A DNA stretch of 64,000 nt from assembly GCA_030427505.1 (NCBI GenBank), contig JAUICH010000001.1, forward strand, positions 682,001 through 746,000, read 5' to 3'. The notes beneath the pieces were generated by a model. That model ran no database searches. It saw only the letters and a program-made list of their open reading frames with translations, and had not been told where the DNA came from. Numbering within the stretch: position 1 is the first letter of the stretch; every line of letters begins with the position of its first letter. Made by a program: the position numbers and the translations under genes. Below are positions 23,708-30,380 of this stretch, piece after piece. This stretch comes from Verrucomicrobiia bacterium. GTDB lineage: Bacteria; Verrucomicrobiota; Verrucomicrobiia; Verrucomicrobiales; DEV007.

Positions 23708-23797
23708 GGACAGGTGCCAGAGCGGTCGAATGGGCACGCCTGGAAAGCGTGTGTGCCCGAAAGGGTACCGAGGGTTCGAATCCCTCCCTGTCCGCCA
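23708..23797 (+). tRNA. tRNA-Ser (anticodon GGA)
   Basis: A complete class II tRNA of 90 nt including encoded CCA. Acceptor stem GGACAGG (23708-23714) pairs with CCTGTCC (23787-23793), followed by discriminator G and CCA. The anticodon stem CACGC/GCGTG encloses loop CTGGAAA, anticodon GGA at 23742-23744. A long variable arm (GTGCCCGAAAGGGTACC) precedes the T arm GAGGG-TTCGAAT-CCCTC. It reads UCC and UCU codons. Confidence 0.97.
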
Positions 23798-27576: not shown

Positions 27577-29118
27577 CTAAGAAAGTATTAGCGAAGCCAA
27601 TATCTCCCGCTTTAGCTTTCCCGGTTGGGCAAGATAACCAAGGTCGAAACTATCTATTTTCTTCGTAGCGGAAACCTTAGCCCATTCATCGGCAAGCCAT
27701 TTGAGTTCGTCGGCTTCTATTAGTGCAATGGGAACTTGGTTTTCTACTTGGTACTTGATAGCCAGCGCCTCGGAATCGTTCGTAAATTGCGGCGCTATGA
27801 CCAGAAACGCGGCGATTGGTTTTTCCGAGGCTTTGATATATCTATCAAACTGCCGGATATGGGCTTGCAGGGAGCAAACTTGCTCCTTCGATTTATTGTC
27901 CCAAAGTATCAGCCGGTCTCCGTAAGATAAGGCGCCATCAGCCCGTTCGGAACCCACATTCGGAAGCGGTTTGTGTCCGAGCCGTTTCTCGAAAAGAAAG
28001 GAGGTCGCCTCTTCGAAGCGGCGTTCGCATTCAAGATCCTTTTCGATCATGAATTGAGCTCTCAAGAAGGCCAGGTCGCGGTGAGCTAGTTGCGAATAAA
28101 AATTGTAGTAGAGTTCCCTTTCGTCCTCTTGATTGGGGCTTTTCTGAAGCAATTGGTCGTAGCACTCGATAATTCGTTCGATCAATTCGGCCTTGGTTCC
28201 ACTTACTTTTAGATTTCGTTCAGCGCACCAATCTCTCAGTTTTTCCAGGGGTAGGCCATCGTTTGGCGCAAAGCCGCCAAGGATTTGAGAAGGGTTAAGA
28301 GATTGTATGCAAATTTCCTGGAGTTCTTGCAACGTAGGCCGCCCGTCTATGATCAGTTCCGCTTTCTCAATCAGTGCGGTCAGATAGTCTTTGGATCGTA
28401 CGAAACGATGTGTCAGCAACTCTTGGTATCCGTGCCTTCTTATTTCGATGTCGGAGGCTTTTCGAATGGCTTTTGCCACCTCATCCGGAATGATGTCAAA
28501 GTCTTCATCTTTGTCATCCCGTATGGCAAAGAGGAGGCCTTTGGATTGCAACGTGCGTCTGACGGATTCTATCTCGCCTCTGGTGTGCAGAGAATTGCGT
28601 GGTTTGGGAAAGAAGCCAAGTTTAGCTTCAATAATGCGGTATTCCGACTCGGAGACCTTCAGCCGGCGCCGAACCTTTTCGATAATCATCGCTTCATCGG
28701 TGGAGACGTTCCCGTTTTCCCAGGCGGCTTCCAGTACGAATGAGAAAAGTGTGATGTTCTTAATCTTTTGACCGCGTTTGTTCGCCAGGTCATCGTTCGA
28801 ACGATCAATGATTTCTTGCTCCCATTCGATCAACCGGTCTTCGGTTTCACGTTGGGAACACACGAAGTCGTCCTGGTTTAAAAGAATCTCGGTTAGGATG
28901 GCCGGGCCGATGGTTCGAACGTCCTGATCATCGTTAAAGATGACTGACTGCAAGGCGGCCGATACGTTCTCCAGATTCGAGTACTGTGGTCCGGTCTTTG
29001 TTAATGCTTCACGAACCTCATCCTCGTTTAACCCACGATGATCGATGACATATGCACTGGCGATCCGGCGTAGTTCGATGACTTTGCGGATTTCCCCAAC
29101 TGTTATTCTTAGATTCAT
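27577..29118 (-). CDS. putative nuclease: TerB-like helical region, SAP domain, FokI-like PD-(D/E)XK domain
   Basis: A 513-residue cytosolic protein. Residues ~115-170 (NITLFSFVLEAAWENGNVSTDEAMIIEKV) resemble TerB-like helical domains. Residues ~287-322 (PLEKLRDWCAERNLKVSGTKAELIERI) are a SAP DNA-binding motif. The C-terminus (~365-480) matches FokI-type nuclease order: a helix with Glu370/371, ERADGALSYGDRLILWDNKSK giving Asp394 and Asp407-x-Lys409, then IRQFDRYIKAS and LVIAPQF. All three metal/catalytic positions are kept. Two sampled 60-base lines contain 59 G/C of 120, below the neighbours, suggesting acquisition. No methyltransferase is adjacent. Function (defence, repair or other) is unproven; domain calls are by eye. 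Confidence 0.65.
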   Translation of the reverse strand: MNLRITVGEIRKVIELRRIASAYVIDHRGLNEDEVREALTKTGPQYSNLENVSAALQSVIFNDDQDVRTIGPAILTEILLNQDDFVCSQRETEDRLIEWEQEIIDRSNDDLANKRGQKIKNITLFSFVLEAAWENGNVSTDEAMIIEKVRRRLKVSESEYRIIEAKLGFFPKPRNSLHTRGEIESVRRTLQSKGLLFAIRDDKDEDFDIIPDEVAKAIRKASDIEIRRHGYQELLTHRFVRSKDYLTALIEKAELIIDGRPTLQELQEICIQSLNPSQILGGFAPNDGLPLEKLRDWCAERNLKVSGTKAELIERIIECYDQLLQKSPNQEDERELYYNFYSQLAHRDLAFLRAQFMIEKDLECERRFEEATSFLFEKRLGHKPLPNVGSERADGALSYGDRLILWDNKSKEQVCSLQAHIRQFDRYIKASEKPIAAFLVIAPQFTNDSEALAIKYQVENQVPIALIEADELKWLADEWAKVSATKKIDSFDLGYLAQPGKLKREILASLILS

Positions 29119-29271
29119 AGGTCTTAATGGGTGGAAAGTTCTTACGAAGATTGGACAGACGATTCAAGGAAATCATCGGGAATCTCGTCGAACATCATTT
29201 GAATCTGATCAATAGAGGGCCCGCATTACAGGCTTTGTAGCGGATAATTCGCTGTGTTAGGGTGGCTGGCG

Positions 29272-29556
29272 ATGACGTTCAAGGCCAAGGTTCAGAAAGT
29301 AGCGGGGGCGCTGGGAATCGTGATTCCCCAAGAAGTGCTTGAAGCTCTCAAGATAGGAGAGGGTGCGATCTTGAACTTGAAGATCGCTCCCCCGGAGGAA
29401 CCTCGAATCGCCATGTCAGATTCAACCGAGAAGACGCCTCTGAAGATAGCGGAAGAGGGCATGCGGCGATATGGGAATGCGCTTAAAGAGCTGGCGAAGT
29501 CAGATGAATTGGGTTTAGGGCCTCTTAGTGTGGAAGATAGGGGGGACGATTGTTGA
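29272..29556 (+). CDS. AbrB/SpoVT-type antitoxin-like protein, orphan
   Basis: A 94-residue protein from ATG 29272. The N-terminus AKVQKVAGALGIVIPQEVLEALKIGEGAILNLK is the swapped-hairpin AbrB fold found in MazE/VapB-type antitoxins and AbrB regulators. The C-terminal half (EKTPLKIAEEGMRRYGNALKELAKSDE) is a helical tail like those that bind toxins. No toxin gene follows; the next 226 bp are non-coding. It is divergent from the putative nuclease gene (153-bp gap), so it could regulate it, or be left over from a lost toxin-antitoxin pair. Confidence 0.75.
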   Translation: MTFKAKVQKVAGALGIVIPQEVLEALKIGEGAILNLKIAPPEEPRIAMSDSTEKTPLKIAEEGMRRYGNALKELAKSDELGLGPLSVEDRGDDC

Positions 29557-29782: not shown

Positions 29783-30055
29783 TCACGCCATGGCGGCGGC
29801 GGGTTCCATCTCGGCTTCGGCTTCGGCCATGGTGGAGGTGGCGGCATCCCGCATTTGATGCACGTCTTTGGCTGCGAGGGGCATGCCGCCGATGGCCCAG
29901 TCGTTTTCCTTGAACTCGTTGATCCGGACCCAGGTGACGGGCCGCAGGGCTTCGCCTTCGATCTCGACCATGGCGTCGGTGATTTTTTTGACGATCTCCT
30001 GCTTCATTTCCGTGGTGAACACGTTTTCGATGACGTCGATAGTGATAAGTGGCAT
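29783..30055 (-). CDS. 4-oxalocrotonate tautomerase-family protein, copy 2
   Basis: A 90-residue tautomerase. After Met removal the N-terminal Pro (MPLITIDVIENVFTTE) is the catalytic base. Arg39-region VTWVRINEF and NDWAIGG complete the core of this family, whose members isomerise unsaturated keto/enol acids and assemble as hexamers. Length exceeds the usual ~62 residues because of an Ala/Glu/Met-rich tail (EAEAEMEPAAAMA). It differs from the copy at 30108-30380 at only three positions, all in the tail, so the duplication is recent. Second gene of the pair, 52 bp downstream of copy 1. Confidence 0.85.
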   Translation of the reverse strand: MPLITIDVIENVFTTEMKQEIVKKITDAMVEIEGEALRPVTWVRINEFKENDWAIGGMPLAAKDVHQMRDAATSTMAEAEAEMEPAAAMA

Positions 30056-30107: not shown

Positions 30108-30380
30108 CTATGCCATGGCGGCGGCGGGTTCCATCTCGGCTTCGGTTTCGGCCATGGCGGAGGGGGCTGCGTCCCGCATCTGGTGGACGTCCTTGGCCGC
30201 GAGGGGCATGCCGCCGATGGCCCAGTCGTTTTCCTTGAACTCGTTGATCCGGACCCAGGTGACGGGCCGCAGGGCTTCGCCTTCGATCTCGACCATGGCG
30301 TCGGTGATCTTCTTGACGATCTCCTGCTTCATTTCCGTGGTGAACACGTTTTCGATGACGTCGATAGTGATAAGTGGCAT
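30108..30380 (-). CDS. 4-oxalocrotonate tautomerase-family protein, copy 1
   Basis: A 90-residue copy of the neighbouring tautomerase with catalytic N-terminal Pro and identical residues 1-71; the tail reads AAPSAMAETEAEMEPAAAMA. It is transcribed away from the HxlR-SCP2 regulator. The dyad at 30508-30528 lies in the shared intergenic region, which suggests that the regulator controls the pair. Substrate unknown; HxlR regulators often respond to quinones or aldehydes, so detoxification of a reactive carbonyl is a guess. Confidence 0.85.
   Translation of the reverse strand: MPLITIDVIENVFTTEMKQEIVKKITDAMVEIEGEALRPVTWVRINEFKENDWAIGGMPLAAKDVHQMRDAAPSAMAETEAEMEPAAAMA

Follow-up and report, generated by a model that had tools for sequence, protein, structure and literature searches.

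A predicted winged-helix, SAP and FokI-type nuclease from a Verrucomicrobiia genome, a member of an unnamed and widely scattered gene family

The gene and its surroundings

The window analysed here, a stretch of 64,000 nucleotides from the genome of a Verrucomicrobiia bacterium, carries on its minus strand a complete open reading frame of 513 codons that begins with ATG and encodes a protein of 513 amino acids (Table 1). The first-pass annotation, which had been made from the letters of the window, placed an open reading frame in exactly this interval but missed that it lies on the minus strand; the plus strand is interrupted by stop codons throughout. Its description of the region as an AT-richer patch agrees with the measured composition: the gene has a GC content of 48.3% as against 59.0% for the window, which ranks it in the lowest 0.2% of window stretches of equal length. 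A single copy is present in its own genome. Scanning for a promoter and a terminator of the gene yielded signals at chance level or below.

Adjacent to the gene, on the other strand, lies an open reading frame for a small, divergent MazE/AbrB-like protein, whose matches to the MazE_antitoxin and doc_partner families both stay under the cut-offs. Its earlier designation as an orphan AbrB protein holds insofar as no toxin-sized open reading frame occurs between it and the next gene, but it is probably not part of the nuclease system. A toxin-antitoxin pairing of the two genes was considered and rejected, as they lie on opposite strands and the arrangement does not recur among the neighbourhoods of homologues. 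Two tautomerase-family open reading frames of 90 amino acids each (29783-30055 and 30108-30380, minus strand) represent a recent tandem duplication, with copies of 282 nucleotides that are 94% identical and spaced by 325. A tRNA-Ser (GGA) gene at 23708-23797 on the plus strand, between dnaK and the gene for a large c-type protein, is a possible integration site.

Table 1. Features of the nuclease gene and of its flank, in window coordinates
Feature	Position	Strand	Basis
Whole gene, winged-helix/SAP/FokI-type nuclease (P0001)	27577..29118	-	Open reading frame, 92 relatives, AlphaFold
Winged helix part 1, residues ~49-88	28855..28974	-	VIA-align to MarR/ArsR-type winged helices; boundary from DSSP
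Helical insert within winged helix, residues 89-175	28594..28854	-	Discontinuous winged-helix alignment
Winged helix part 2, probable recognition helix and wing, residues 180-224	28447..28581	-	DSSP; winged-helix matches end at ~224
Degenerate first SAP-like unit, residues 228-283	28270..28437	-	Aligned stretch is SAP in relatives
SAP domain, residues 287-322	28153..28260	-	PF02037, E=3e-9 at 291-318
FokI-type PD-D-x-K cleavage domain, residues 330-513	27580..28131	-	Structure comparison (VIA-align, Foldseek)
Active-site stretch F368-E369 ... D394-G395 ... D407-N-K409 ... Q423-F-..-Y427	27838..28017	-	Homologue alignment
Divergent MazE/AbrB-like small protein, 100-aa open reading frame	29254..29556	+	MazE_antitoxin E=0.0017; doc_partner E=1.7e-8

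Domain architecture of the predicted nuclease

An AlphaFold model built from an alignment of 48 homologues is confident along the whole protein (mean pLDDT 92.8, pTM 0.79). The succession of winged helix, SAP and FokI-type cutter is a real, conserved architecture built from known parts. No description of a nuclease combining SAP with FokI or TerB with SAP was found in the literature searched, which lay mostly outside subscription journals. The 513-aa protein matches none of the PADLOC-DB models at E<=1, and the family is absent from the libraries of defence systems (PADLOC) and protein families (NCBIfam) that were searched.

The first-pass annotation had proposed a C-terminal FokI-type nuclease, and structure comparison was decisive in its favour. 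The model aligns with FokI over two domains (Z 15.1), with Nt.BspD6I over 180 residues of the segment 329-513 (Z 14.0, rmsd 3.5 Å) and with the small subunit of R.BspD6I (Z 12.3), and Foldseek places FokI at the top rank (E=2.5e-6); a fold search of BFVD gave weak PD-(D/E)XK matches only. By sequence, the PF09254 profile of the FokI cleavage domain reaches 17.7 bits (E=0.0025) and thus remains below its gathering cut-off of 25, so that the protein is a distant relative rather than a curated member of PF09254; the same profile matches 28 of the 48 homologues at E<=1, the best at 5e-6. Sequence profile searches of the PDB did not recover FokI, and the link to this enzyme therefore rests on structure, Pfam and profile comparison. 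Judged by its predicted fold, the protein is almost certainly a FokI-type nuclease, and it is very probably active on DNA.

The type IIS enzyme FokI (PDB 1FOK, 2FOK), the best structural match, has the C-terminal PD-D-x-K cleavage fold in common with the protein, as well as the general plan of a winged-helix-type DNA-binding part followed by the cleavage domain. It differs in that the window protein, at about 16% identity, possesses one or more SAP units and a helical insert and has no adjacent methylase, whereas the three-module recognition unit of FokI is not recognisable in it by sequence. In Nt.BspD6I and AlwI-like enzymes, which are components of methylase-bearing restriction systems, the cleavage domain is again the common element and the recognition part is a different one. 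Comparison with the profile of AlwI-like FokI-domain proteins gave E=4e-5 with the catalytic motifs in register, and the window protein shares the motifs FExAT, PD, DNK and YI with the AlwI-like proteins fetched via PF09254 (L090-L094). The latter are about 520 amino acids long, start with 'MLNYWWVTRPKR' and are encoded by 5 of 241 genomes from the phylum.

The residues named for the active-site stretch in Table 1 are identical in all 48 homologues except for N408, which is kept in 46. Complete identity extends to R347, D361, E369, T372, D394, G395, D407, K409, E412, Q423 and Y427, and E369, D394, K409 and Y427 are retained even in a nine-member set that includes haloarchaeal sequences at 22% identity. 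The assignment of D394, D407 and K409 as catalytic residues was thus correct, and E369, Q423 and Y427 are invariant along with them; the two outcomes named beforehand as fatal to the proposal, a model lacking a PD-(D/E)XK fold and unconserved catalytic residues, did not arise. A remote relative of 619 amino acids (L007; 1402-3258, minus strand) has E-C-K in place of D-N-K, with E at the position of D407, together with an additional central stretch and a weak Mrr_cat match; within this architecture it forms a divergent branch.

The N-terminal half contains a MarR-like winged helix that had been overlooked in the first-pass annotation and whose two parts are separated by a helical insert. Many winged-helix structures match the model at Z 7-8.5, with an rmsd of about 2-3 Å over 75-85 residues in a split alignment that spans residues 50-224; RosR-S4 gives Z 8.5 (rmsd 2.0 Å, 85 residues), and as these values come close to the range of a common fold, no subfamily is claimed. 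The second part is made up of the elements H180-192, E197-200, E206-209 and H212-221. The insert is kept in 48 of 48 homologues, and A132, E142 and P171 are invariant within it.

Inside this insert lies the block that had been described as TerB-like. A weak signature does exist ('ENGNVSTDE..I', at about 123-166), but the likeness to the TerB family (PF05099) is confined to this short helix signature: 42 columns align weakly to 19 TerB domains in hhalign (E=1e-4, prob 58), and PF05099 matches 2 of the 48 homologues, weakly, with E=0.012 at best. Modelled in isolation, the block folds poorly (pLDDT 64.5), and a fold search with this model was without a match.

The SAP motif noted earlier scores 36.7 bits against PF02037, above the curated cut-off of 23.9. 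The segment preceding it has no Pfam match in the window copy, and the corresponding stretch is a SAP domain in divergent relatives (E=4.8e-8 in L087, the best, and 1.4e-6 and 9.7e-6 in others), so that the ancestor probably had two SAP units in tandem, of which the first has decayed in the window protein. The proposal that SAP serves as the DNA-reading part had passed over the tandem units of relatives; the domain is present, but the winged helix is more likely to be the DNA-reading module than SAP alone. Winged helices can bind DNA without reading a modification, as in FokI, and Pfam detected no modification-reader family (SRA, PUA, EVE) in the window protein or its homologues.

Distribution and neighbourhoods of the family

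The gene family to which the protein belongs has no name and is dispersed over many bacteria and archaea. A search of genome contigs with a single protein as query returned no relatives, while an alignment as query returned 92, and 80 loci were fetched; extending the alignment by haloarchaeal sequences left no stretch conserved enough for searching. The relatives, at least 92 in metagenome-assembled genomes and isolates, come from many bacterial phyla and some archaea, with the qualification that many are metagenome-assembled and single contigs may be mis-binned. Loci derive from Verrucomicrobiota and allied phyla, Bacillota, Mycoplasmatota, Chloroflexota, Armatimonadota, Planctomycetota, Bacteroidota, Acidobacteriota, Pseudomonadota and archaeal bins, and the copy of the planctomycete Limnoglobus roseus (L088) lies in a complete genome.

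Presence is patchy. Within the phylum, 9 of 388 genomes carry the gene, and among the genomes listed from the same order it occurs in its own genome only. In the tree, the phyla are intermixed, with more than one change for each of Bacillota, Verrucomicrobiota, Bacteroidota and Lentisphaerota, a pattern that is compatible with transfer but no proof of it. Pairs of copies that are 80-90% identical have a neighbour in common within three genes in 6 of 72 cases, and since close copies so rarely keep common neighbours, the gene appears to travel alone. Comparison with empty sites was uninformative, the flank matching no genome of the same family beyond about 34 bases. Atypical GC content, patchy presence and lost synteny together support the earlier view of a mobile accessory gene, one that appears to move between genomes individually.

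Distant homologues are found on the Natrinema plasmid pNVE500, near an integrase, an N-6 methylase and a helicase, and in Halorubrum virus Humcor1. A contig of IMG/VR (IMGVR_UViG_2554235473_000004, L135) bears a copy that is 100% identical to the Humcor1 homologue over its full length, and the gene thus recurs in haloarchaeal virus sequences. One further relative among viral contigs has 34% identity (L136); searches of viral contigs with A2 or a Clostridia member as query gave no match.

No partner family recurs across the 80 loci: the commonest cluster, ABC ATPases, occurs at nine of them and at no fixed position. As had been stated before, no methyltransferase is recognised among the open reading frames around the window gene, and a motif search within 8 kb of the 80 loci detected a single cytosine methylase, so the description as something other than a standard restriction-modification pair stands. 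The adjacent cognate methyltransferase of type II systems is missing, and the gene has the arrangement of type IV systems, that is, a stand-alone nuclease without methylase.

A survey of homologous neighbourhoods, suggested in the first-pass annotation as a check on its proposal of a defence gene, gave a divided answer. Several relatives lie in clear defence islands: one adjoins GajA (E=4e-235), followed by a GajB-like helicase, i.e., Gabija (L014); another lies 18 bp upstream of AriA-AriB (PARIS), beyond which follow genes that look TIR-like and SIR2-like on inspection by eye (L024); a third is situated between AbiEi/AbiEii and HEC-05 (L087). Further copies are found beside PDC-S39 (L019) and near a C5 methylase (L021). 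However, most copies lie outside defence islands, many of them adjoining housekeeping genes, and no defence gene adjoins the window copy. Near neighbours gave 167 matches to PADLOC models and far neighbours 42, a suggestive indication of a defence neighbourhood in which the near count is inflated by overlapping AAA models and both sets are drawn from the same regions. The copy next to PARIS (L024, 2917-4473) is one of two in Candidatus Izimaplasma ZiA1 and is split into two frames, through either decay or sequencing error.

Possible modes of action

Designed nucleases take a FokI-type domain as their standard cutter; in nature, such domains have been described chiefly in type II systems protected by a methylase. 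When a cutter of this type is joined to a winged helix and SAP in a widespread natural family without methylase, the question arises of how host DNA is avoided, and the family could reveal both a new way of discriminating self from foreign DNA and a new natural targeting module. Since no copy is accompanied by a conserved protective methylase, the nuclease cannot freely cut ordinary host DNA and must be selective in another way. The reading favoured here, to which a probability of roughly 55% is given, is that of a mobile DNA endonuclease that acts as a single protein without a methyltransferase and responds to some feature of invading DNA, most likely in restriction-type defence; a defence role of the family, taken by itself, appears slightly more probable still.

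Under the favoured reading, double-stranded DNA would be gripped by the winged helix, insert included, together with the SAP unit, while the C-terminal domain, with one PD-D-x-K active site, would need a partner copy for cleavage of both strands, as does FokI, whose cleavage domain contains a single active site and cuts as a dimer (PMC4081073). Ordinary host DNA would be spared and foreign DNA attacked, the trigger being either a base modification, to which winged-helix restriction enzymes of type IV respond, or else DNA that is unusual in its structure or state of replication. Stand-alone winged-helix endonucleases lack a neighbouring methylase in 87% of cases and are 6mA-dependent (PMC11037411). 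One enzyme of this kind, HHPV4I, is encoded by an archaeal virus and has been proposed to exclude competitors (PMC10101028). These precedents make a DNA modification the leading single candidate for the trigger, albeit at less than even odds, the alternative being the structure of the DNA or its state of replication. The window family resembles the 6mA-dependent type IV fusions in being a stand-alone single gene with a winged helix and usually no methylase neighbour (PMC11037411), and HHPV4I in having a copy in a haloarchaeal virus (PMC10101028). It differs in its nuclease, which in the winged-helix fusions is HNH, GIY-YIG, PLD or another PD-(D/E)XK domain, and in its SAP, which is not reported for them. 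The fuller picture is tentative: an analogue of type IIS enzymes without a methylase, in a cross-domain family that includes an archaeal virus, may use a winged helix with a sensor insert, together with SAP, to read a mark or structure of foreign DNA and to drive the FokI-type cutter. We infer DNA cleavage, dimerisation, the defence role and the trigger alike.

Among the alternatives, a nuclease of DNA repair or recombination, in which winged helix and SAP would recruit the FokI-type cutter to damaged or branched sites of the host chromosome, is unlikely, though it fares best. SAP domains are frequent in DNA repair and chromatin proteins, many copies adjoin housekeeping genes, and the winged-helix region also matches folds of TFIIH subunits at Z of about 9, a value that is, however, near the common-fold range. 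A core repair gene would not be expected to show the patchy presence, the loss of synteny at high identity or the atypical GC content described above, nor to have copies in defence islands and in a virus.

A suicide effector or superinfection-exclusion nuclease, whose insert would act as the sensor and which would destroy DNA once infection is sensed, is improbable: the conservation of the insert with its invariant residues and the proximity of some copies to abortive-infection systems (PARIS, Gabija, AbiE) fit such a role, but the insert revealed no sensor domain of a known kind, its isolated model being poor and giving no fold match. Least probable, by a small step, is a sequence-specific type IIS-like restriction enzyme with its protective methylase encoded elsewhere in each genome, for although the nuclease has the fold of FokI, a type IIS enzyme, and of the BspD6I nickase, and at least two proteins of the N6/N4 methylase family are encoded at other places in the window genome, the methylase of a type II system normally adjoins its nuclease (PMC11037411), and the 80 loci yielded the one methylase mentioned above.
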